From Deltaproteobacteria bacterium (GTDB lineage: Bacteria > Desulfobacterota > Binatia > HRBIN30 > JACQVA1): DNA of 64,000 nucleotides. Location of the stretch: assembly GCA_016178705.1 (NCBI GenBank), contig JACOST010000014.1, positions 248,001-312,000 of the forward strand, in the 5' to 3' direction. Below are positions 3,902 through 20,657 of the stretch, one piece after another (position 1 is the first letter of the stretch; each line of letters begins with the position of its first letter). Position numbers and translations under genes: made by a program. The notes under the pieces were generated by a model. The model had not been told where the DNA came from. It searched no databases and saw only the letters and a list, made by a program, of their open reading frames with translations.

Positions 3902-4354
3902 ATGAATGCGACCATGGAGCGGCTCAGCCGCCAACATCGCGATGTGCTCGGGCGCCTCGCCGCGATCGAGTCTGCCAGCACCGACGGCGGCGACTTCGCC
4001 GAGTTCAGTGCGTATCTCGCACACGAGGTTACGCAGCACTTCGCCCTCGAAGAGCGCGCGCTGTTTCCGGTGTTGGCGCGCCACCTCAGCCTCGTCCAGG
4101 GCCCGTTGGCGGTGATGAATGCGGAGCACGTGGCGTTCGGCGACTTGCTCCGCGATCTCGCCGCAGCGGTACGCGGAGACGACCACAACCGCCAGCGCGC
4201 AAATGTCGCGGAGATCATTCACCTCCTGCGCGATCACATCGCCAAAGAGGATCGCATCCTGTTTCCGATGGCCGCGCGCCTGTTGAGTGTCACCGAGCAG
4301 GGCGAGGTCGACACGCGAGCGGCCCGGCTCGCCGGCGCCGAACTCGCGGTGTGA
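3902..4354 (+). CDS. Hemerythrin/HHE-domain protein
   Basis: This 150-residue four-helix protein has the HHE cation-binding pattern. The histidines and acids expected to hold a di-iron site are in RQHRDVL, YLAHEVTQHFALEE, NAEHVAFGDL and LRDHIAKEDRILFP. Such proteins bind oxygen or nitric oxide, or sense iron and redox state. A GGAAGGAGAG ribosome-binding site precedes ATG 3902. The stop is one base before the cytochrome gene start (TGA C ATG), so it is the first gene of the molybdoenzyme operon. An oxygen- or NO-handling role beside an oxygen-sensitive enzyme is an inference. Confidence 0.8.
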   Translation: MNATMERLSRQHRDVLGRLAAIESASTDGGDFAEFSAYLAHEVTQHFALEERALFPVLARHLSLVQGPLAVMNAEHVAFGDLLRDLAAAVRGDDHNRQRANVAEIIHLLRDHIAKEDRILFPMAARLLSVTEQGEVDTRAARLAGAELAV

Positions 4355-4355
4355 C

Positions 4356-5924
4356 ATGAAGCCCGTCGCCTTCGCGGCCGGCATCGTGGCGATTGTGGCA
4401 ATGGCGGCGGTGGCTGCCGCCGGAGCCGCGCCAACCACGCCCGAGGCGCTCGCGCTCGGCAAGCAGGTATTCGAGAAGCAATGCACGCCGTGCCATGGCG
4501 CCGACGGGCGCGGCGATGGACCGGCGGCGTATCTGCTGTATCCGCGACCGCGCAACTTCCGCACCGGCAAGTTTCGCTTGGTCTCGACCTGGGACGGCGT
4601 GCCGACCGACGACGATCTGTTCCGCACCATTTCGCGCGGCATGCCGGGTTCGGCCATGCCGGCGTGGGGCTACCTACCGGAAGACACGCGCTGGGCGCTG
4701 GTCGCCTACGTCAAATCGCTCGCGGAATCTCCCCTCGTCGTCAAACCCGCCAGCGAACCGGCAAGCGAAGGTAGCCAGGGCAGCGGGCTGATCTCCGTAC
4801 CGACCGAACCGGCCTACGATGACCAAGCGAAGGCGCGCGCGGCCGAGTTGTTCCGCGACGGCTGCGCGTCGTGTCATGGTGCCAGCGGCCACGGCGACGG
4901 CGCAACCGATCAGCGCGACGAAGCCGACTATCCGATTCGTCCGCGCGATCTCACCACCGGTGTCTTCAACGGCAGCCCCGAACCGCAGGACCTCTATCGG
5001 CGCATCGTCGCCGGCATGCCGGGCACGCCGATGCCGATGAGCGAGTGGGCCTACGGACCAGATGCGTGGCACCTGACGCATTTCATCCGCTCCCTGTCGA
5101 GCGACGATCAACGCGCCCGCGCCGAGATGCGACGGTTCACAATTCCGGTCACCCGGGTCGCTGCGTTGCCCGATCATCCCGACGCCGGCGTGTGGGCGCG
5201 CACCCCCGTGGTCAACCTCCATCTCATGCCGCTGTGGTGGCGCTACGATCGGCCGGAGGAACTCTCAGTGCGCGCGCTGCACGACGGCACGGAGATCGCG
5301 CTGCAACTGGTGTGGACGGATGCGACGCATGATGCCACCGCGATGCGGCCGCAGGATTTCCGCGATGCCGCCGCGATCGAATTGTCGGGGACGCCCGATC
5401 CGCCGTTCTTCGCCATGGGGCAGAAGAATCAGTTCGTCAACATTTGGATGTGGAAGTCGGAGCGGCAAGCCGACCTCGAACCGGCTTTCCAAGATCTCGA
5501 GAAGGTGTACCCCAACCTCGGCATCGACTCGTACCCCAACGTATCGAAGTCGCCACTCGAACAGCCGTCCCGGCACGCATTGACGCTCGATTTCAATCCG
5601 ACCTTCGTCACCGCGTGGGGCGCGGGCAACATCGTCGCGAACCCGCTGCGCACCAGCGCCGCCGAGGATCTCGTCGCGCAAGGTTTCGGAACCTTACGTG
5701 CACGACCGGAGATGAATCAAGCGGTGAGCGCCACGGGGGTTTACGGCACCGATTCGTATCGCGTGATTTTCCGCCGCGAACTCGTCGCCAAAGGTGAAGG
5801 CGCGGTAACCCTGCAACCGGGGTCGAGTGTTCCGGTCGCCTTCGCCGTGTGGAACGGCGCCGCCGGCGATCGCGACGGCAAGAAATCGGTGACCATCTGG
5901 CAGGAACTGAAGATCGACCCGTGA
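4356..5924 (+). CDS. Gamma subunit: dihaem cytochrome c fused to an ethylbenzene-dehydrogenase-type haem b domain
   Basis: This 522-residue exported protein starts at ATG 4356, one base after the previous stop; the frame is open further upstream, but only this start gives a signal peptide (residues 1-26). Two cytochrome c domains follow, with haem motifs CTPCH (Cys43, Cys46, His47) and CASCH (Cys170, Cys173, His174). Residues of about 270-520 match the ethylbenzene-dehydrogenase-related haem-b domain (VVNLHLMPLWWRY, FFAMGQKNQFVNIWMWKS, YRVIFRREL). In relatives the gamma subunit carries one haem b only. Here the fusion would take electrons from beta through haem b to two covalent haems in the periplasm. 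The heme-b axial ligands cannot be proved by eye. Confidence 0.85.
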   Translation: MKPVAFAAGIVAIVAMAAVAAAGAAPTTPEALALGKQVFEKQCTPCHGADGRGDGPAAYLLYPRPRNFRTGKFRLVSTWDGVPTDDDLFRTISRGMPGSAMPAWGYLPEDTRWALVAYVKSLAESPLVVKPASEPASEGSQGSGLISVPTEPAYDDQAKARAAELFRDGCASCHGASGHGDGATDQRDEADYPIRPRDLTTGVFNGSPEPQDLYRRIVAGMPGTPMPMSEWAYGPDAWHLTHFIRSLSSDDQRARAEMRRFTIPVTRVAALPDHPDAGVWARTPVVNLHLMPLWWRYDRPEELSVRALHDGTEIALQLVWTDATHDATAMRPQDFRDAAAIELSGTPDPPFFAMGQKNQFVNIWMWKSERQADLEPAFQDLEKVYPNLGIDSYPNVSKSPLEQPSRHALTLDFNPTFVTAWGAGNIVANPLRTSAAEDLVAQGFGTLRARPEMNQAVSATGVYGTDSYRVIFRRELVAKGEGAVTLQPGSSVPVAFAVWNGAAGDRDGKKSVTIWQELKIDP

Positions 5925-6161
5925 GGATGGCGATGATGCGACTTGGCTTCTTCCCCTCCCCCTCGGGAGACCGTAGATGAACTCGGTCGCTGTGCCGTTT
6001 TCCAGCAGAGTTCCCGTTCCTTGTAGGGGCGACGCATGCGTCGCCCGCGAATCAACGTGGTCACTGCGGAGAAGACGGAGGGCGATGCATGCATCACCCC
6101 TACGCCTCAGAACACATCGACAGTCTCTCGGGGAGAGGGAACCCGCAATGGAGGGTCCGCG
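5925..6161. other. Intergenic spacer holding a REPIN-like element
   Basis: This is the only long gap inside the molybdoenzyme operon, 237 bases between the gamma and alpha genes. Its middle is the REP-type inverted pair at 6023-6103. The rest shows no gene. GGAGGG, a plausible ribosome-binding site, lies about ten bases before ATG 6162. Confidence 0.5.
6023..6103. repeat. REPIN-like pair of inverted REP palindromes
   Basis: A first copy at 6023-6046 contains GGGGCGACGCATGCGTCGCC. A second at 6080-6103 reads GGGCGATGCATGCATCACCC and ends CTAC. The second is the inverted, slightly diverged form of the first, and 33 bases lie between them. Each unit is itself a palindrome. Paired, inverted REP units match the REPIN arrangement of short non-autonomous mobile elements. 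A third, identical unit lies within the chaperone gene at 11522. Confidence 0.7.
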
Positions 6162-9100
6162 ATGAGCGACCAATCTTTCTTCGATCTGACCCGGCGTGAC
6201 TTTCTGCGCTGGCTCGGCATCGGCACAGGCACGGCCGCGGCGGCCGGCATCCCATTGCGGCTGCTGGCCGCTGCCGATCCAGATCAGAACCCACTGGCCG
6301 GCGCGGTCGCGCGCGGCTGGGAGAAGATCTACCGCGATCAGTACAGCTACGACGCCTCGTTCGATTGGGTGTGCTCCCCCAACGACACCCACGCCTGCCG
6401 CGTGCGCGCGTATACGCGCAACGGCATCGTCACCCGCCTCGGCGCGACCTACGATTACCAAAAGTACGCCGACCTCTACGGCAATCACGCCAGCGTGAAC
6501 TGGAACCCGCGCCAGTGCGCCAAGGGTTACACGTTCCACCGTGTGCTCTACGGTCCCTATCGCTTGCGCCATCCGATCGTACGACGCGGCTGGAAAGCGT
6601 GGTGCGATGCCGGCTTCCCCGAGCTGACCCCGGAGCTGAAGTCGAAGTATCTCTTTGATGCGCGCGGGCAAGACGAGTTCGTGCAGATCGCGTGGGAAGA
6701 CGCCTTTGACTGCATTGCACGCGCCCTCAACGCCATCGCCACGAGCTACAGCGGCGATGCCGGCGCCAAGCGGCTCCTCGCCCAGGGCTACCAGCCCGAG
6801 ATGGTGAAGGCGATGGGCGGCGCCGGCACGCGCACGTTCAAGATGCGCGGCGGCATGGGGCTGCTCGGCGTCATCGGCAAGTACGGGATGTATCGCCTCA
6901 ACAACTCGATGGCGCTGCTCGACGCCAAGATCCGCGGCGTCGACCACGAGCAGGCGCGCGCCGGCCGCAACTTCTCCAACTACACGTGGCACGGCGACCA
7001 GGCCCCCGGGCATCCGTGGGTGCACGGGCTGCAAGCCTCGGACTGCGACTTCAACGACCTGCGCTCGTCCAAGCTCATCGTCATGGACGGCAAGAACTTG
7101 GTCGAGAATAAACTCACCGACTCGCACTGGTTCATCGAGTGCATGGAGCGCGGCGCCAAGATCGTCGTCATCGCGCCCGAGTACGGTCCGCCGTCGACCA
7201 AAGCCGACTACTGGATTCCCATCCGCCCGCAGACCGATGCCGCGCTGTGGCTCGGCATCACCCGGCTGATGATCGAGAAACGGCACTACGACGAATCATT
7301 CGTCAAACGCTTCACCGATTTCCCGCTGCTGGTGCGCAAGGACACCCTCAAGCGCGTGCGCGCGCACGAAGTGTTTCCGGGCTACCAATCGACCCTGTCA
7401 CCCGACGGGCCATCGATGAAGATCCAGGGGCTCAAGCCAGAGCAGCACGACACACTCGGCGACTACGTCGTGTGGGACGCGAAGACCAACGCTCCGCGCG
7501 CGATCACGCGCGACGAGGTCGGCGACACGATGACGACCCACGGCATCGACCCTGTTCTCGCGGGCTCGTTCAAGCTGAAGCTCGCCGACGGCAAGACGGT
7601 TGAGGTCGCGACGTTGTGGTCGCTCTACCAGATTCATCTCAAGGACTACGACATCAAGACCGTGTGCGAGATTACCCACGCGCCGCAGAACCTGGTCGAG
7701 CAACTCGCCGAAGACATCGCGACGATGAAGCCGGTGGCCATTCATCAAGGTGAGGGTATCAATCACTGGTTCCACGCCACCGAGATGAATCGCGCGGCGT
7801 ACCTGCCGCTGATGCTCACGGGCAACATCGGCCAGCCCGGCGCCGGCTGTCACACCTGGGCGGGCAACTACAAGGCGGCGTTGTTCCAAGGCTCGCCGTG
7901 GACCGGCCCAGGCTTCAAAGGCTGGATCGCCGAAGATCCATTCGAGATCAATCTCGACCCCCACGCGCCCGGCAAGGTGATCAAGGCGCACGCCTACACC
8001 AAGGACGAAGAGCCCGCGTACTGGAATCATGGCGATCAGGCGCTGATCGTCAACACGCCGAAGTTCGGCCGCAAGAATTTCACCGGCGAGACCCACATGC
8101 CGACGCCCACCAAGGCGCTGCTGTTCAGCAACGTCAACCTGATCAACAACGCGAAGTGGGCGTACGGCATGATCAAGAACGTCAACCCCAACGTCGAGTT
8201 GATCGTCTCGATCGACATTCAGATGACCGCCTCGATCGAGTATGCCGACTTCGCGTTGCCGGCCAACTCGTGGCTCGAATTCGAGGGCCTCGAAATCACT
8301 GCGAGCTGCTCGAATCCATTTCTGCAAATTTGGCAGGGCGGCATCCCGCCGGTGTTCGACAGCAAGGACGACCTCATGATCCTTGCCGGCATCGCCAACG
8401 CGATGGCGAAGGTCACCGGCGACAAACGTTTCGACGACTACTTTGCGTTCGCCGCACCCGCGCAGCGCGGGATCTACATTCAGCGGTTGCTCGATACCAG
8501 CACCACCACCGTCGGCTATCAGCTCGCTGACATCATGGCCGGCAAGTACGGGCCGCCGGGCGGCGCGTTGATGAACTTCCGCACTTACCCGCGCATTCCG
8601 TTCTACGAACAGGTCCACGACAGCGAGCCGTTCCACACCGACACCGGTCGCATGCACGCGTATGCCGACGTACCCGAAGCGATCGAGTACGGCGAGAACT
8701 TCATCGTCCACCGCGAAGGACCCGAAGCCACGCCCTACCTGCCGAACGTGATCGTCAGCACCAACCCTCTCGTGCGGCCCGAAGACTACGGCATCTCGGA
8801 GAAGGCCGAGCACTGGGACGACCGCACCATCCGCAACATCAAGATGCCGTGGACCAAGGTGAAGACGACCAAGAACTTCCTGTGGGAGAAGGGGTTCCAC
8901 TTCTATTGCCTGACCCCGAAGTCGCGCCACCGCGTCCACAGCAGTTGGTCGAATGTCGACTGGCACATGCTCTACGATTCCAACTTCGGCGATCCGTATC
9001 GCCTCGACAAACGCGCGCCGAGCGTCGGCGAGCATCAACTCCACATCAACCCGGCGGCGGCGCGCGATTTGGGCATCAACGACGGCGACTACGTCTACGT

Positions 9101-9614
9101 CGACGCCAATCCCGCCGACCGTCCGTACCTCGGCGCCAAGCCCAGCGATCCGTTTTACCGCGTCTCGCGCTGCATGCTGCGCGTGAAGTACAACCACGCC
9201 TATCCGTACAACTGCGTGATGATGAAACACGCGCCGTTCATCGCAACCGAACGCAGCGTGAAGGCGCACGAGACCCGGCCCGACGGCCGCGCGCTATCGG
9301 AGAACACCGGCTATCAATCCAACCTACGCTACGGCTCGCAGCAGTCTGTTACCCGCAACTGGCACATGCCGATGCACCAGACCGACACGCTCTTTCACAA
9401 GGCCAAGGTGTTCATGGGCTTCATCTTTGGCGGCGAAGCCGACAACCATGCCGTCAACACCGTGCCCAAGGAAACCCTCGTGCGCGTCACCAAAGCCGAA
9501 GACGGCGGCCTCGGCGGCAAGGGCATCTGGAAACCCGCCACCACCGGCTTTACCCCCGACAACGAGAGCGAGTTCATGAAACTCTACATCAGCGGAGAGT
9601 TGGTGAAAACGTGA
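6162..9614 (+). CDS. Catalytic alpha subunit, type II DMSO-reductase-family molybdoenzyme
   Basis: This 1,150-residue protein binds the molybdenum bis-MGD cofactor. It starts at ATG 6162, where a twin-arginine signal (TRRDFLRWLG, residues 10-19) targets it folded to the periplasm. The N-terminal Fe-S site is VCSPNDTHACR with a later NPRQCAKG (Cys71, His77/Cys79, Cys119), as in the ethylbenzene-dehydrogenase/selenate/perchlorate branch. NYTWHGDQAPGHPW holds Asp279, the expected molybdenum ligand of type II enzymes. The C-terminal part (LHINPAAARDLGINDGDYVYV) is the MGD-binding domain. The context of gamma, beta and TorD supports a three-subunit complex. The substrate is unknown: hydrocarbon or steroid hydroxylation is suggested by the clade, oxyanion reduction is possible. 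Confidence 0.88.
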   Translation: MSDQSFFDLTRRDFLRWLGIGTGTAAAAGIPLRLLAAADPDQNPLAGAVARGWEKIYRDQYSYDASFDWVCSPNDTHACRVRAYTRNGIVTRLGATYDYQKYADLYGNHASVNWNPRQCAKGYTFHRVLYGPYRLRHPIVRRGWKAWCDAGFPELTPELKSKYLFDARGQDEFVQIAWEDAFDCIARALNAIATSYSGDAGAKRLLAQGYQPEMVKAMGGAGTRTFKMRGGMGLLGVIGKYGMYRLNNSMALLDAKIRGVDHEQARAGRNFSNYTWHGDQAPGHPWVHGLQASDCDFNDLRSSKLIVMDGKNLVENKLTDSHWFIECMERGAKIVVIAPEYGPPSTKADYWIPIRPQTDAALWLGITRLMIEKRHYDESFVKRFTDFPLLVRKDTLKRVRAHEVFPGYQSTLSPDGPSMKIQGLKPEQHDTLGDYVVWDAKTNAPRAITRDEVGDTMTTHGIDPVLAGSFKLKLADGKTVEVATLWSLYQIHLKDYDIKTVCEITHAPQNLVEQLAEDIATMKPVAIHQGEGINHWFHATEMNRAAYLPLMLTGNIGQPGAGCHTWAGNYKAALFQGSPWTGPGFKGWIAEDPFEINLDPHAPGKVIKAHAYTKDEEPAYWNHGDQALIVNTPKFGRKNFTGETHMPTPTKALLFSNVNLINNAKWAYGMIKNVNPNVELIVSIDIQMTASIEYADFALPANSWLEFEGLEITASCSNPFLQIWQGGIPPVFDSKDDLMILAGIANAMAKVTGDKRFDDYFAFAAPAQRGIYIQRLLDTSTTTVGYQLADIMAGKYGPPGGALMNFRTYPRIPFYEQVHDSEPFHTDTGRMHAYADVPEAIEYGENFIVHREGPEATPYLPNVIVSTNPLVRPEDYGISEKAEHWDDRTIRNIKMPWTKVKTTKNFLWEKGFHFYCLTPKSRHRVHSSWSNVDWHMLYDSNFGDPYRLDKRAPSVGEHQLHINPAAARDLGINDGDYVYVDANPADRPYLGAKPSDPFYRVSRCMLRVKYNHAYPYNCVMMKHAPFIATERSVKAHETRPDGRALSENTGYQSNLRYGSQQSVTRNWHMPMHQTDTLFHKAKVFMGFIFGGEADNHAVNTVPKETLVRVTKAEDGGLGGKGIWKPATTGFTPDNESEFMKLYISGELVKT

Positions 9615-9616
9615 CC

Positions 9617-9698
9617 AATGCGGAATGCGGAATGAAGGCATCAACCGTCTCTGACATTCCGCATTCCGCACTCCGCATTCCGCATTCCGCATTTGGAG
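9617..9698. repeat. Inverted GCGGAAT/ATTCCGC heptamer repeats
   Basis: Two GCGGAAT units at 9621-9636 face four or five ATTCCGC or CTCCGC units at 9657-9692, with 20-30 bases in between. The block can fold into a long hairpin. It lies between the alpha gene and the small gene at 9704 and may affect expression of the distal genes. The same kind of ATTCCGC repeat is scattered in many genomes; nothing is encoded. Confidence 0.6.
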
Positions 9699-9703
9699 TA
9701 ACC

Positions 9704-10012
9704 ATGCCCTTCAACGATCCTGATCCCACTGATCCCCACGAGCTGCGTGGCGTAGTGCTACCGGCCGGACCGGAGGAAGTGCGCGACATGGCCTACGCGT
9801 TCGCCGAAGAGTTCGCCCGCTTCGGCCATCGCCGCGACCAAATTCTGTGGATGTTCCGCAACCCGTTCTACGGCGGTGCCCACGGCGCCTATCAAGCGCT
9901 CGGCCACGACGCCATCGTGGCGATCGTCGACGAGTGCATCGCCATCTGGGGCCGAGTGCGGTTGGTGGATCGCGATGCGGACACTGCAACTCCCTCTCCC
10001 AGAGGGAGTTGA
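9704..10012 (+). CDS. Small conserved-looking protein of the molybdoenzyme operon
   Basis: This 102-residue protein starts at ATG 9704, after a TTTGGAGTAACC ribosome-binding site. It has no signal peptide or cysteine motif. The centre is mostly helical (EEVRDMAYAFAEEFARFGHR), with FRNPFYGGAHGAYQALG and IVDECIAIWGRV. I do not recognise a family. It sits between alpha and beta, so an assembly or accessory role in the complex is plausible but inferred from position only. Confidence 0.7.
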   Translation: MPFNDPDPTDPHELRGVVLPAGPEEVRDMAYAFAEEFARFGHRRDQILWMFRNPFYGGAHGAYQALGHDAIVAIVDECIAIWGRVRLVDRDADTATPSPRGS

Positions 10013-10033
10013 TCGGAGAGGAGTGAGACGACC

Positions 10034-11311
10034 ATGCCCAAAGTCCACAACTGGCAACTCGGACGCGACATGGAGTACCCGTACGACGCCGCGTTCCCGC
10101 AGCGTCAGTTCGCATTCGTCTTCAACATCAACCGCTGCATCGCCTGCCAGAGCTGCACGATGGCCTGCAAGTCGACCTGGACCTTCAACAAAGGTCAGGA
10201 GCACATGTGGTGGGCCAACGTCGAGACCAAACCCTACGGCGGCTACCCGCAGTTCTGGGACGCGCGCATCCTCGAACTGCTCGAAAAGGCCAACCCCGGA
10301 GGACAGCGCTGGCAGCCTTTAACAGATGCGCCCGCTGACAATCCGCACGCACCCTACGGCGAGTATCAAGGTCAGACGATCTTCGAAGCCGGACAGAAAA
10401 ACCTCACCCCCGACAGCGCCCGCGTGCTCGGCTACTTGCCCACCGACGAAGAGTGGAACTCACCCAACATCTACGAAGACAACCCCGTCGGCGAGCGCGG
10501 CAAGCCGATGCAGTACAACCCAACCGGCGTCGAGTTGCCCGTCCACAAGACGTGGTTCTTCTACCTCGCGCGGATCTGCAACCACTGCAGCTACCCGGCG
10601 TGTCTCGCCGCATGCCCGCGCAAAGCGATCTACAAACGGCCTGAGGACGGCATCGTATTGATCGATCAGAGCGAGTGCCGCGGCTATCGCAAGTGCGTCG
10701 AAGCCTGCCCGTACAAGAAAACCATGTACCGCGGCAACACTCGCACCTCGGAGAAGTGCATCGCCTGCTACCCGCGCGTCGAAGGGAAGGATCCCGAGAG
10801 CGAGGGCCAGCCGATGGAAACTCGCTGCATGGCGGCGTGCATCGGCCAGATCCGGATGCAGGGCTTGGTGAAGATGAATCCCGAAGGTACCTGGGCGGAA
10901 GATCGGCAGCACCCGCTCTACTACCTGGTGCACGTCGCCAAGGTCGCACTCCCGCTCTATCCGCAGTTCGGCACCGAGCCGAACGGATACTACATTCCAC
11001 CACGCTGGGTACCGCGTCCCTACCTGCGCCAGATGTTCGGCCCCGGCGTCGATCAGGCCATCGAGCGCTACAGCAACCCGGATCGCGAACTGCTCGCGGT
11101 GCTGCAGCTCTTCCGCCGCTCGAACCGGATCATCTTCCGCTACGAAGTCGAAGAAGGGCCGAAGATCTACGAAGGCGCGCTGCGCGGTAAACCCGTCACG
11201 ATCTACAACGACACGGTGATCGCATTCGGACAAGACGGCCGGGAACTCTTCCGCACCACCGTCGAAGAGCCGCTGCATATCCGCGGAGGCCAGCATGCGA
11301 ACTCCATCTGA
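10034..11311 (+). CDS. Iron-sulfur beta subunit of the molybdoenzyme
   Basis: This 425-residue electron-transfer subunit has no signal and would be exported with alpha by the Tat system. Four cysteine groups typical of NarH/EbdB-type subunits are seen: CIACQSCTMAC (Cys35, 38, 41, 45), CNHCSYPACLAACP, CRGYRKCVEACPYKK, and CIACYPRVEGK with RCMAACIGQ. These would hold three or four clusters passing electrons between molybdenum and the gamma haem. The C-terminal region (NPDRELLAVLQLFRRSNRI) is also typical. A GGAGAGGAGTGAG stretch precedes ATG 10034. The gene overlaps the chaperone gene start by 17 bases. Confidence 0.88.
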   Translation: MPKVHNWQLGRDMEYPYDAAFPQRQFAFVFNINRCIACQSCTMACKSTWTFNKGQEHMWWANVETKPYGGYPQFWDARILELLEKANPGGQRWQPLTDAPADNPHAPYGEYQGQTIFEAGQKNLTPDSARVLGYLPTDEEWNSPNIYEDNPVGERGKPMQYNPTGVELPVHKTWFFYLARICNHCSYPACLAACPRKAIYKRPEDGIVLIDQSECRGYRKCVEACPYKKTMYRGNTRTSEKCIACYPRVEGKDPESEGQPMETRCMAACIGQIRMQGLVKMNPEGTWAEDRQHPLYYLVHVAKVALPLYPQFGTEPNGYYIPPRWVPRPYLRQMFGPGVDQAIERYSNPDRELLAVLQLFRRSNRIIFRYEVEEGPKIYEGALRGKPVTIYNDTVIAFGQDGRELFRTTVEEPLHIRGGQHANSI

Positions 11312-12149
11312 ATCTGTTCTCCCTCGCCCTGTGAGCGACGCTTGCGATGAGGGCGCGGAAGCGGCCGAACTTGCGCTCTGCCGCGCGACGCTCTACTCCG
11401 CGCTCGCGCTCGGCTTCCAACCACCCACGCGCGAGACGATCACGCGGTTGACGACCACCGACGCAGCGAGCGCTTTGGCCGACGCCGCACGTCGACTCGA
11501 CCTCAGCTTGGCTGGATCGGAGGGCGACGCATGCGTCGCCCCTACCAGTCGGCCAACGCTCGCAGAACTTGCCGCGGCGCTCGCGCAGCTCGACGGAAAC
11601 CTCGCCGCGCTCGCCGGCGACTACCGCCGCCTCTTCGGTCACACGGCGCGCGGCGAGGTGCCGGCGTACGAAACCGAGTACGGTAGCGAAGCCCTGTTCC
11701 AACAGCCGCAAGAGATGGCCGACCTCGCCGGCTTCCTGCACGCCTTCGGCCTAGCGATGCGGGCCGACGCGCACGAGCGCGTCGATCACGTGAGTTGCGA
11801 GTGTGAGTTCTTGTCGTTCTTGGCGTGCAAGGAAGCCTACGCGATTGCGCACGATGACCAGGAGATGCGCGCGGCCACCGCGGGCGCCACCGAGTTGTTT
11901 CTGCACGATCACGTCGGACGCTTCGTGCCGGCATTCGCGACCCGACTGGCGCGCGCCACATCCAGCGGCCTGTACCGCGCCCTGGCCGATCTCCTGCACG
12001 CGCTGGTTGAGGGTGACTGCCGGCGGTGCGACATCACGCTCGGCACGCCCGGCCTACCGTTGCGGCCCGACCCCGCAACAATCGCCACCCCAATGGGTTG
12101 CGAAGCCGCGGCCGACGGCACCTGCCCGGCGGGCGCTGGGATCGCATGA
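11295..12149 (+). CDS. TorD/DmsD-type chaperone for the alpha subunit
   Basis: This 284-residue, mostly helical cytoplasmic protein matches the TorD family, which binds the Tat signal of molybdoenzymes and helps insert the cofactor. Family-like parts are the N-terminal LCRATLYSALALGF, the core YRRLFGHTARGEVPAYETEYG, and DHVSCECEFLSFLACKEAYA followed by FLHDHVGRFVPAFATRLA. The start at 11295 lies inside the end of the beta gene. An exact copy of the REP palindrome (11522-11545) is read in frame as about residues 76-84 (EGDACVAPT), between helices where family members have a loop. The stop overlaps the next start (ATGA). Confidence 0.82.
   Translation: MRTPSESVLPRPVSDACDEGAEAAELALCRATLYSALALGFQPPTRETITRLTTTDAASALADAARRLDLSLAGSEGDACVAPTSRPTLAELAAALAQLDGNLAALAGDYRRLFGHTARGEVPAYETEYGSEALFQQPQEMADLAGFLHAFGLAMRADAHERVDHVSCECEFLSFLACKEAYAIAHDDQEMRAATAGATELFLHDHVGRFVPAFATRLARATSSGLYRALADLLHALVEGDCRRCDITLGTPGLPLRPDPATIATPMGCEAAADGTCPAGAGIA
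11522..11545. repeat. REP palindrome inside the chaperone coding sequence
   Basis: GGGCGACGCATGCGTCGCCC plus CTAC is the exact reverse complement of the unit at 6023-6046 (24 of 24 bases). It adds eight codons, so the frame is kept. Confidence 0.8.
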
Positions 12150-13099
12150 CCACGTTGCCGATCGTCGCCGAACCCTCGCTGATCGAAGAAGCGGTGCTGC
12201 GCCGGATCGCCGGCCACAGCGCCGAGCGCCCGTTCCGGCGCGAGCGCGATCGGCTCTACCTCATCACCAACGAAGCCAAACGCGAGCAGACGTTCCAACA
12301 ATTTCACCAGCGCTGGTTCGCGCAACTCGAACTGGGCGGACCGATCGACGCTGCGCTCGGCGAATTGCCGATCTTGGCGCAGACGTGCGTACGCTGCTTC
12401 GTGACTCGCGCCGCGCTGCCTTCCGACGAAGGCGCGGACCTGCTGGTCGCGAGTGACGGCAGCATCTGTGAGCGCACGGTCCTCATCCGCCTGCGCGTTG
12501 TGTCGTTCGACGATCCAGTCGCGTTGCTCACGCTGTTGCGCTTCGAGCTGCTGCACGTCGCAGACATGGCCGACGCGGCGTTCGGCTACGAGCCAACCCT
12601 GCCGAGTGTCGATGGTGGCCCATCGTACGAGCGACTGCTCCGCGATCGCTACCGGGCTTTGTGGAACGTCAGCATCGCTGGCCGCCTCCACCGCCGCGGC
12701 GTCGCCAGCCCCGATGCGAAGGCGGTTGCGCACCGCGGTTTCGTTGCAGCGTTCCCGGGTCTCGGCGACGCCGAGGCAGACGAAACGTTCGAGCACTTCT
12801 TCGATAGCACCACCTGCTCGCATGCGGATCTGGTTGCGTTCGCGCTTACGCCGCACGCGCGCGGTGCCGCGCGCGGTTTGGTCGCCGGCGGACGTTGCCC
12901 ACTGTGCCGCTTCTCCACTTACACCCCCGAACCCGCACCGGAAGATCTGCCCAACGAGGTCGTCGCGTGCATCGCGCAGGACTTTGCCGATTGGCAACCC
13001 ACCGATGGCCTGTGCCGCCAGTGCGCCGACCTCTACCGTGCTCGCCCGATGTCAATCGCCGCCGCGGAGCGCTTGCCGAATGCGCACAACACCGTGTGA
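12146..13099 (+). CDS. Unknown protein with a C-terminal zinc-binding site, molybdoenzyme operon
   Basis: This 317-residue protein has its ATG overlapping the chaperone stop (ATGA), which implies coupled translation. There is no signal or membrane helix. The middle has LTLLRFELLHVADMADAAFGY. The C terminus holds two Cys pairs, CPLC near residue 251 and CRQC near residue 290, which would form a zinc ribbon. I cannot assign a family. The tight coupling suggests a maturation or assembly factor for the complex; that is an inference. Confidence 0.75.
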   Translation: MTTLPIVAEPSLIEEAVLRRIAGHSAERPFRRERDRLYLITNEAKREQTFQQFHQRWFAQLELGGPIDAALGELPILAQTCVRCFVTRAALPSDEGADLLVASDGSICERTVLIRLRVVSFDDPVALLTLLRFELLHVADMADAAFGYEPTLPSVDGGPSYERLLRDRYRALWNVSIAGRLHRRGVASPDAKAVAHRGFVAAFPGLGDAEADETFEHFFDSTTCSHADLVAFALTPHARGAARGLVAGGRCPLCRFSTYTPEPAPEDLPNEVVACIAQDFADWQPTDGLCRQCADLYRARPMSIAAAERLPNAHNTV

Positions 13100-13163: not shown

Positions 13164-13523
13164 ATGGAACGCGTGCTCGTCTACCACAACCCTGGGTGAG
13201 GGAAGTCGCGCGGCGCGCTGGACATCCTGCGCGAGCGCGGCGTCGCGTGCGACGTCATCGAGTACCTCAAGCAACCGCTCGATCGGGCCACTCTCACTCG
13301 CATCCTCGGGCTGCTCGGTGGAGAACCAGCCGCGCTGGTGCGCAAGGACAAGCGCTTCAAAGAGCTCGGCCTCGACGAGCAGCGCTATCAATCGCGCGAG
13401 CAGGTCATCGCCCTCTTGCTCGATCACCCCGAGCTGATGGAGCGCCCGGTGATCATCCGCGGCAAACAAGCAGTCATCGCCCGCCCCTCCGAGCGAGTGC
13501 TCGAAATCTTGGCGAAATCTTGA
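13164..13523 (+). CDS. Candidate selenocysteine-containing ArsC-family arsenate reductase-like protein
   Basis: Read through the TGA at 13197-13199, this 360-base frame encodes a 119-residue ArsC/glutaredoxin-type reductase. It begins MERVLVYHNPG, then the UGA codon, then GKSRGALDILRERG. The UGA is codon 12, the position of the catalytic cysteine in E. coli ArsC (YHNPAC). The three arginines of the ArsC active site are present in ALVRK, MERPVII and RPSERV, and the rest aligns without a gap to the stop at 13523. Downstream of the UGA a GC hairpin can form (CGCGC 13214-13218 with GCGCG 13229-13233). Its loop TGGACATCCT carries GG 20-21 bases after the UGA, as expected of a bacterial SECIS. Selenocysteine is inferred; a pseudogene or a sequencing error of TGC/TGT is the alternative. 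Confidence 0.7.
13200..13240 (+). promoter_or_regulatory. Possible bacterial SECIS hairpin
   Basis: Five G-C pairs (13214-13218 with 13229-13233) close a ten-base loop that contains GG at 13220-13221. An alternative six-pair stem, 13206-13211 with 13229-13234, is also possible. Distance from the UGA and the loop guanines fit the loose bacterial consensus, but a GC-rich genome forms such hairpins by chance. Confidence 0.4.
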
Positions 13524-14723: not shown

Positions 14724-18287
<3,564 letters not shown>

Positions 18288-18303
18288 TGAATGAGGTAGC
18301 GCC

Positions 18304-19308
18304 ATGGATCTCTCCACTACCTATCTCGGCCTAAAGCTGCCGCACCCGCTGATGCCGGGCGCATCGCCCTTAGTGGACGACCTCGACATGGTGAAGCGCT
18401 TGGAAGACGCCGGGGCGGCCGCGATCGTCATGCACTCGCTGTTCGAAGAGCAGATCGAGCAGGACCAACTCGGCTTCCTGCGTTTCACGGAAGATCCCGC
18501 CGAGTCGTACGCGGAGGCGCTGTCGTACTTCCCGCGCCCGGATGAGTTTGCGCTCGGTCCCGAACGCTACCTGCGTCAGATCCAGCGCATCAAAGAAACC
18601 GTGGCGGTGCCGGTGATTGCTTCGCTCAACGGCCACTCGGCCTCGGGCTGGCTCGAATACGCCCGCTTGATCGAGCAAGCGGGTGCCGACGCGCTCGAAC
18701 TCAACATCTATCACGTGCCCACCGACCCGACGGAGACCGGCGACCGTGTCGAGCAGCGCGTGCTGGACATTGTGCGCACGGTGAAGGCGGAGGTCGGAAT
18801 TCCGCTGGCGGTCAAACTCGCGCAATTCTTCTCCGCGATCCCGCACCTCGCCCACGCGCTCGATCGGATCGGCACCAACGGCTTGGTGCTGTTCAATCGC
18901 TTCTATCACCCCGATATCGACATCGAAGAGTTGGAAGTCGTGCCGCGACTCCATCTCTCCGAACCGTACGAGTTGCTCGTACGGCTGCGCTGGCTGGCGA
19001 TTCTCGCCGGGCGCGTGCGCATGTCGCTCGCCGTGACCGGCGGCGTCCACACCGCACCCGACGCGATCAAAGCGGTGATGGCTGGCGCCCACGCGGTGCA
19101 GATGGTCTCCGCGCTGCTGCTCCATGGACCGGAGCATCTGCGCGCGGTGCACGATGCCATGCGCGCGTGGATGGAAGAGCACGAATACACGTCGCTGGCG
19201 CAAATGCGCGGCAGCATGAGCTTGGAGCACTGCCCCAATCCGAGCGCGGTCGAGCGCGGCAACTATCTGCGCGTGCTGCAGAGCTGGCGGGGAAGAGACG
19301 AGCGTTGA
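18304..19308 (+). CDS. Dihydroorotate-dehydrogenase-like flavoprotein
   Basis: This 334-residue TIM-barrel protein resembles the DHOD-like family that accompanies pyruvate:ferredoxin oxidoreductase genes rather than true PyrD. Barrel motifs seen are MPGASPLVDDL, VPVIASLNGHSASGW, ADALELNIYHVP, PLAVKLAQFF, NGLVLFNRFY and SLAVTGGVHTAPDAIKAVMAGAHAVQM, the last fitting FMN phosphate binding. It starts 16 bases after the nifJ stop. The reaction is not established; pyrimidine synthesis is less likely than a flavin redox role with PFOR. Confidence 0.8.
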   Translation: MDLSTTYLGLKLPHPLMPGASPLVDDLDMVKRLEDAGAAAIVMHSLFEEQIEQDQLGFLRFTEDPAESYAEALSYFPRPDEFALGPERYLRQIQRIKETVAVPVIASLNGHSASGWLEYARLIEQAGADALELNIYHVPTDPTETGDRVEQRVLDIVRTVKAEVGIPLAVKLAQFFSAIPHLAHALDRIGTNGLVLFNRFYHPDIDIEELEVVPRLHLSEPYELLVRLRWLAILAGRVRMSLAVTGGVHTAPDAIKAVMAGAHAVQMVSALLLHGPEHLRAVHDAMRAWMEEHEYTSLAQMRGSMSLEHCPNPSAVERGNYLRVLQSWRGRDER

Positions 19309-19313
19309 GCTGA

Positions 19314-20606
19314 CTACTGGTCGCCCATCATCATCTTCGCCGTGCGGCGTCCGATCTCCACAGCGTAGTTAGTTCCCCGATCCCACGGATACACCTGCGA
19401 CATCGAGGCGAAGTACAGCCCTGGAATCGGCGTACGAATATCCGGAATGTTGCGCGAGTGATTCAACGGCGGCACCGGCTGGGCGTAGGTCTCGCGGAAC
19501 AGCCAGGTCTTCTTGACCCACGAACGGTCGAAGTTGGGATTGAAGCGCGACAGCGCCGGCAGAAAACGTTCCAAAATTTCCTCATGCGACAGCCGGAAGT
19601 ACTCGTGCTCCGGCACCAGATAGTCGCCGCAGTAGACGATGCGATCACCGCCGAAATGCTCCGGCGACATGAAGTTGGTGTGCTCGCACAGCGCCAGGAA
19701 CGGAAAGCCCTCACCCTTGGGCAAGTTGTGCCAATAGATGCCCGACTCGTTGAGTTGCCGATCAAGCGTGAGGATCAACACCACCGCGCCCATCGACTTC
19801 AGTCCGCGGAGCTGCCCGAGGTACGCGTCCGGCAACGCCGGCGTCAGCCGCTCCATCAATCGCGGCGACGTGGTGGCCAGGCACAGGTCGTAGTCGATCG
19901 GGCCGCTGGGCGCTTGCACCGTCAACCCACCACCGACGCGCGGCGCGATCGAGCGCACCGCGGCGCTCAACTCGATGGCCACACCGCGCGCGCGCACGGC
20001 ATCAGCGAGCGCATCGAAGAACGCCTGAAAGCCGCCGACAAATGTCCCGAGGAATTTCGTGCGCGAGTGCACCCGCGCCCAGAACCACGCCATGTTGACG
20101 TCGCGGTAGTATTCTTCGCCGAATTTGCCGACCAACATCGGCTCGGCCAGCTTGTGGTACGCCCCCTTGCCCGTCCATCGGCTCAGCCACTCGTGCGCGG
20201 TTGTCTTCTCCAGGGCCTTCCAATTTTTCGTCAGTCGCAAGTAGAGCCCGGCGGGGCCGGCGCGCAGTTTGTCGAACAGCGACAGCCCGGGAAACTTGAG
20301 TTGCGCCGCCATCGAATCGAACGCGAAGAACTGACCCCGATCGTACACCGCGGTGACGGTATCGACGAAGCGCACGCGATCCTTGGCGCCGATTTCATCG
20401 ATCAATCCGAGGACGGCTTTGTCGGTCTGAAACCAGTGATGGTAAAAGCGCTCGATCGTCCAGTCCCAGTGCGGCTCCTTGAACCCCGACGCCAACCCGC
20501 CAACGTTGGGCGCGGCTTCGTACACCGTCACCGCGTGTCCCGCGCCAGCCAGATCGTAGGCCGCCGACAGGCCGGCCGCTCCCGCTCCAATGATCGCAAT
20601 CTTCAT
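19314..20606 (-). CDS. FAD-dependent amine-oxidase/protoporphyrinogen-oxidase-like protein
   Basis: This 430-residue flavoprotein has an N-terminal FAD-binding motif, MKIAIIGAGAAGLSAAYDL, and the following VYEAAPNVGGLASGF. The C-terminal FAD contact is PGLYFASMSQVYPWDRGTNYAVEIG. Such NAD(P)-binding Rossmann/FAD proteins include polyprenyl, carotenoid and UDP-sugar processing enzymes, so the substrate is open. I start at ATG 20606 because the Rossmann motif follows at once; the frame extends twelve codons upstream. It is convergent with the DHOD-like gene, and its 5' side abuts the left 47-bp repeat of the Rhs locus. Confidence 0.78.
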   Translation of the reverse strand: MKIAIIGAGAAGLSAAYDLAGAGHAVTVYEAAPNVGGLASGFKEPHWDWTIERFYHHWFQTDKAVLGLIDEIGAKDRVRFVDTVTAVYDRGQFFAFDSMAAQLKFPGLSLFDKLRAGPAGLYLRLTKNWKALEKTTAHEWLSRWTGKGAYHKLAEPMLVGKFGEEYYRDVNMAWFWARVHSRTKFLGTFVGGFQAFFDALADAVRARGVAIELSAAVRSIAPRVGGGLTVQAPSGPIDYDLCLATTSPRLMERLTPALPDAYLGQLRGLKSMGAVVLILTLDRQLNESGIYWHNLPKGEGFPFLALCEHTNFMSPEHFGGDRIVYCGDYLVPEHEYFRLSHEEILERFLPALSRFNPNFDRSWVKKTWLFRETYAQPVPPLNHSRNIPDIRTPIPGLYFASMSQVYPWDRGTNYAVEIGRRTAKMMMGDQ

Positions 20607-20610
20607 CGCC

Positions 20611-20657
20611 CTGTGAGTACAGCGACAACGCGCGCCCCGCAACTGCGGGTTTTCAAG
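20611..20657 (+). repeat. Left 47-bp direct repeat bounding the Rhs locus
   Basis: It begins CTGTGAGTACAGCGACAACG and ends CCCCGCAACTGCGGGTTTTC plus AAG. The copy at 33634-33680 differs at only two bases. The second half (CCCGCA-AC-TGCGGG then TTTT) can fold as a short hairpin followed by T residues. All rhs material of the large locus lies between the two copies. Confidence 0.75.

Follow-up and report, generated by a model that had tools for sequence, protein, structure and literature searches.

An arsC gene with an in-frame UGA at the catalytic cysteine codon in a Binatia genome: a very probable Sec-containing ArsC of the UxxS family

Described ArsC proteins and the window gene

Selenocysteine (Sec) forms of ArsC appear in marine selenoprotein surveys, as the original prediction had correctly stated. 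In the excerpts cited here, arsenate reductase (COG1393) stands among the new selenoproteins of the 2005 Sargasso Sea survey with the figure 14 (PMC1088965), and the 2008 ocean survey has an entry ArsC 1 (pfam03960, motif UxxS) with the figure 77, taken here as a sequence count (PMC2398784). The same excerpts report a stem-loop after the UGA of the marine ArsC UxxS selenoproteins (PMC1088965, PMC2398784), and those of two reviews, from 2022 and 2026, include the family (PMC9312934, PMC13188914). As far as the excerpts go, the survey family (COG1393/TIGR00014, UxxS) is like the gene described here, which lies in a stretch of 64,000 nucleotides (the whole stretch analysed, hereafter the window), in having Sec at the position of the catalytic Cys, almost certainly so in the window gene, and in having Cys homologues. 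The survey sequences come from marine metagenomes, however, whereas the window gene belongs to a near-complete genome in which the Sec machinery is visible. The arsenate reductase-like selenoprotein family NF041106 is likewise ArsC-like with Sec but, in the excerpt that describes it, has the motif UxxC with a second cysteine, where the window protein has Ser (PMC13188914).

The window motif is U-G-K-S, which fits UxxS, and the gene adds a member to the ArsC UxxS selenoprotein family reported in 2005 and 2008. It would be a selenoprotein in the phylum Binatota, for which a literature search combining Binatota and selenocysteine gave no description, the one paper it turned up naming selenocysteine once, in its reference list.

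For the Cys enzymes our point of comparison is PDB 1i9d and 1jzw, which we take to be the glutaredoxin-linked ArsC of plasmid R773. The two proteins are alike in their near end-to-end alignment, the catalytic residue 12, His8, Ser15 and the three arginines, but the window protein almost certainly has Sec in place of Cys, and its gene is not in an ars operon.

The reading frame and its homologues

The features of the gene, in window positions, are:

13164..13523, + strand: arsC gene, almost certainly of a selenoprotein; 119 residues with U12; stop TGA at 13521-13523
13197..13199, + strand: in-frame TGA, almost certainly the Sec codon (codon 12, catalytic Cys column); 39 TGA and 25 Cys in 64 class homologues
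13341..13343, + strand: Arg60 codon, active-site arginine; Arg in 64/64 class homologues
13443..13445, + strand: Arg94 codon, active-site arginine; Arg in 64/64 class homologues
13482..13484, + strand: Arg107 codon, active-site arginine; Arg in 63/63 rows reaching residue 107, the remaining row being cut by the contig end

The frame from ATG 13164 begins MERVLVYHNPG-TGA-GKSRGALDIL, and on re-reading the coordinates of the original prediction, its TGA at codon 12 and its open frame to 13523 are correct. With codon 12 entered as Cys, the product scores 112.4 bits against TIGR00014 (NCBIfam, arsenate reductase (glutaredoxin); curated cut-off 106.05) and 54.5 bits against Pfam ArsC (PF03960; cut-off 24), and ten distinct PDB ArsC sequences match it with E values of 2.4e-22 to 4.8e-19. 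The alignment with solved ArsC proteins runs near end to end and sets their Cys above codon 12, which bears out the assignment of this codon to the catalytic Cys column. The description of the product as an intact ArsC with three active-site arginines also holds, these being residues 60, 94 and 107, which are established active-site residues of ArsC. Together with His8 and Ser15 they are present in the window protein and in all 39 rows with Sec; the exceptions among the 25 rows with Cys are L211, with Tyr8 and Cys15, and L188, which is truncated short of residue 107. Downstream of the TGA no start-like codon occurs in frame until a GTG at residue 59, where gene callers had been predicted to start. 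Ordinary gene calling would truncate the gene.

Homologues were collected at two scales. A first set of 58 genomes (the window's own and relatives) gave 51 matches, and among the best 30 of these 51 codon 12 is TGA in 9 and TGC or TGT in 21. A class set of 148 Binatia genomes, searched with a threshold of E 1e-30, gave 64 genes from 63 genomes, with TGA in 39, TGC or TGT in 25 and no other codon at this position, so that each of the 64 carries either the Cys or the UGA for which the original prediction had suggested looking, a pattern that goes beyond chance. Apart from one frame truncated where its contig stops, the 64 genes all close normally, and the random stops and frameshifts that had been named as counter-evidence are absent from them. 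At this threshold 85 of the 148 class genomes have no ArsC match; G001, the only other genome of the same family in the relatives set, is one of the 85 and lacks any ArsC match. Eleven more distant ArsC genes (L036-L046) all have Cys.

The sequence around codon 12 differs between the two kinds of gene. Residue 11 is Gly in 35/39 Sec rows as against 5/25 Cys rows, and the base following codon 12 is G in 37/39 as against 12/25; the window gene has Gly and G respectively. When the window gene is compared with seven homologues, omega lies at 0.07-0.25 for the part ahead of the TGA, which has just 11 codons, and at 0.10-0.30 for the part that follows, and purifying selection acts on the frame on both sides of the TGA.

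Beyond the class, we scanned one genome per species (84,980 species) with the DNA motif YHNP-x-UGA-G-(K or Q or similar)-x-R. This gave 114 stretches, 107 of them with a full-length frame (at least 112 residues together with the RP motif, 107/107), equivalent to 103 distinct proteins. The others are four stretches cut by the stretch end and three short frames; judged by eye, two of these (L048 and L060) seem to be chance matches and the third (L051) is perhaps a broken gene. As a control, tblastn with the window ArsC as query matched 191 of 195 stretches, those of the motif scan included. By record title the 107 comprise 33 Neomarinimicrobiota (Fidelibacterota), 27 Gammaproteobacteria, 11 Acidimicrobiia, 9 Binatota and a small number from other phyla, the titles Deltaproteobacteria and Desulfurellaceae in this set being taxonomically unsure. 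Because the motif demands Gly after the UGA it misses Ser forms, of which the class has two. A virus origin was considered too, and viral contigs gave no exact match to the motif.

A tree of the 64 class proteins, with residues 11-14 masked, has only 113 usable columns and leaves many forks open. The Sec/Cys label changes 11 times on this tree (10-12 in bootstrap trees), and well-supported branches force at least 3 of these changes, the direction of change not being given by the tree. The window gene sits near two homologues with Cys (L019 and L018) and one with Sec (L166). Since the class contains closely related enzymes of both kinds, it is well suited to measuring the advantage that Sec gives an ArsC-fold enzyme.

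Sec machinery, the hairpin and the decoding of UGA12

The genome, a 98% complete assembly of 6.1 Mb and 33 contigs with the window at 248001-312000 of contig C14, contains all four of selA, selB, selC and selD, the set of genes proposed as a check. There is one clear tRNA-Sec match (74.7 bits), which ARAGORN reports as SeC with anticodon tca; SelA (596.9 bits) adjoins SelB (389 bits) on contig C30, and SelD reaches 413.2 bits with its TGA read as Cys. This single in-frame TGA of selD (L162, 1396-2451, minus strand; C14 at ~752 kb) lies in the motif SHGAG-U-ACKI, in which we take U to correspond to Cys17, the active-site cysteine of the E. coli enzyme. The genome therefore has a second gene with TGA where Sec is expected, and from its sequence SelD is likely to be a second selenoprotein.

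Across the class, tRNA-Sec was counted only above 65 bits or at E 1e-10 or better, because weaker matches include ordinary tRNA-Ser and tRNA-Leu. On this basis it is present in 34/38 genomes with Sec-ArsC and in 17/25 with Cys-ArsC (Fisher p 0.0496), a weak association in the expected direction; one Cys genome, G021, was scored as lacking it despite a match of 50.8 bits (family cut-off 47). Among the 38 Sec genomes, the four that gave no tRNA-Sec match (G058, G062, G077 and G104) are drafts 80-94% complete. In G077 (91% complete), where tRNA-Sec was not detected, the UGA-ArsC (L209) has Ser after the UGA. Genome G061 has two Sec-ArsC genes (L181 and L185) that encode identical proteins and lie near opposite ends of a 5.18 Mb contig, possibly as a result of assembly redundancy.

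A hairpin is predicted just downstream of the UGA:

13205..13241, + strand: predicted hairpin in the MFE fold, just 3' of the UGA; candidate bacterial SECIS

In the MFE fold its apical loop is at 13222-13225, 22 nt after the UGA. Over 48 nt from the UGA the MFE is -26.3 kcal/mol (z -3.0), and about 1 in 300 synonymous shuffles is as stable; over 54 nt this is the case for 2% of the shuffles. Relative to their shuffles, the 31 distinct Sec stretches of the class exceed its 25 Cys stretches in stability when 42 nt are folded (p 0.0096), but not clearly so at 48 nt (0.081) or 54 nt (0.27). A wider set of 96 distinct Sec and 21 Cys stretches gives mean z values of -1.93 and -0.73 and a p of 2.4e-5, which is too small because the rows are related, and the class-only test is both the fairer and the weaker of the two. 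The wider set left out L048, L060, L051, L070, L142, L111 and L114, stretches of <60 bases, those with N and repeats, and its synonymous weights are based on GC only. RNAalifold found no meaningful consensus hairpin, its best being three pairs with near-zero energy.

The excerpted rule for bacterial SECIS elements gives an apical loop of 3-9 nt with an early G, a spacing of 16-37 nt and an MFE of -7.5 or lower (PMC13188914). The window loop in the MFE fold is ACAU, without G, and becomes a 10-nt loop if two pairs open. A loosely scripted form of the rule, not strictly enforced, accepts 99/110 Sec and 23/25 Cys stretches, and says nothing because it fails to separate Sec from Cys genes. Overall the SECIS evidence leans in favour but is weak, and it is plausible that the hairpin after the UGA is a SECIS element.

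From the pattern of TGA and Cys among the homologues together with the Sec machinery of the genome, which support the original placing of Sec at the catalytic position of ArsC, we conclude that the arsC product is almost certainly a selenoprotein with Sec at its active site, and it is highly probable that this protein belongs, as a Sec-containing ArsC, to the known UxxS family, the in-frame UGA being aligned with the Cys of the homologues. If instead this were an ordinary Cys-ArsC gene whose TGA arose by nonsense mutation or sequencing error, one would point to the nearest relatives by tree path, L019 and L018, which have TGC and TGT; because these two have Cys, a base error at 13199 is formally possible. 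This explanation is nevertheless very improbable, as the same codon is TGA in 38 other class loci and in the 107 full-length frames of the motif scan (which overlap in part with the class loci), the frame is uninterrupted and conserved to either side of this codon, the Gly11-U-Gly13 context is typical of Sec genes, the stability of the window hairpin stands out from that of synonymous shuffles, and the genome has the Sec pathway.

An in-frame TGA inside an intact gene would also be compatible with decoding as another amino acid, through a reassigned genetic code or a suppressor tRNA. We regard this as hardly credible, given that no codon besides TGA and those for Cys occurs at this column in the 64 class homologues, and that of ten frames examined in this region, among them that of arsC itself, nine end in TGA; as the nine frames other than arsC contain no internal stops, UGA serves as an ordinary stop in this DNA. 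All three of these explanations (nonsense mutation, sequencing error, code reassignment) are accordingly judged unlikely in view of the class homologues, the sequence context of codon 12, the motif-scan frames, the selection on the frame and the TGA stops.

Mechanism, substrate and genomic neighbourhood

A mechanism for Sec-ArsC can be modelled on R773 ArsC, in which the reaction is linked to glutathione and glutaredoxin. SelB and Sec-tRNA would decode UGA12 as selenocysteine, aided by the downstream hairpin; the Sec12 selenolate would then attack an oxyanion bound by Arg60, Arg94 and Arg107, in all likelihood arsenate, and the selenium adduct would be resolved by an external thiol, for example glutathione with glutaredoxin as in the plasmid enzyme. 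In 34 of the 39 Sec proteins there is no Cys besides the U12 position, so that an external thiol probably resolves the adduct in most of them. Five of the 39 do have a further Cys, the window protein among them with Cys29 (4/39 Sec rows), which may have a role. Two matches to glutathione synthetase above the cut-off suggest, from sequence, that the organism makes glutathione. Because of the need for an external thiol and these glutathione synthetase genes, R773 ArsC is the best mechanistic model, with Sec12 as the presumed nucleophile.

On the identity of the substrate our judgement is evenly balanced as to whether arsenate would be the main physiological substrate of Sec-ArsC. The 39 Sec rows retain the arsenate-site residues that were tested, and the product scores above the TIGR00014 cut-off, both of which argue against the alternative, that the protein is a Sec oxidoreductase with the ArsC fold and a natural substrate other than arsenate. 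The latter would fit with the neighbour clusters common to at least 5 Sec-ArsC loci, in which ars genes were not recognised by eye, and with a separate ars locus in the same genome (C14, ~549-551.5 kb), about 288 kb from the window arsC. In that locus an ArsI/CadI-type protein and ACR3 each score above their cut-offs, and adjoining ACR3 is an LMW-phosphatase-type protein that is a candidate ArsC, its best named family being arsenate reductase, with a score well short of the curated cut-offs (67.1 bits against 157.6). It is common, however, for a genome to have more than one arsenate reductase, which counts against the non-arsenate reading. The excerpt of the 2026 review, for its part, treats the functions of such selenoproteins as largely uncharacterised (PMC13188914). 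Taking both sides together, a substrate other than arsenate is quite possible without being the reading we would favour.

Rather unlikely, in our estimation, is the broader proposal that Sec-ArsC is a stand-alone selenol enzyme found in several phyla, with a main role other than ars-type detoxification and with many Sec/Cys switches in the class. If true, it would provide closely matched Sec/Cys pairs for testing why selenium is kept.

The suggested tie of arsC to the molybdoenzyme operon ahead of it was not borne out. None of eight neighbour genes used as queries (molybdoenzyme alpha, beta and chaperone, frame 12026, cytochrome c 13569 and three genes at 14766-20642) gave a match at E 1e-8 in the 195 stretches around homologues, while the arsC control matched in 191 of them; at E 1e-3 there are two weak cytochrome c matches. 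The flanks around the homologues range from ~0.2 kb to 8 kb, with ~6 kb on each side for most of six close relatives, and because they are limited a looser linkage between arsC and the molybdoenzyme is still possible. Between the chaperone and arsC, frame 12026-13099 has no Pfam match at E 0.001. The molybdoenzyme itself, at 6036-12149 of the window, is of the type II DMSO-reductase-like kind, with 331.8 bits for alpha (subfamily cut-off 984.75), 247.8 for beta (480.7) and 80 for the chaperone (152.3), and from these scores would be a divergent relative. Frame 4287-5924, judged by eye, resembles a multi-haem cytochrome whose end is similar to ethylbenzene dehydrogenase gamma.
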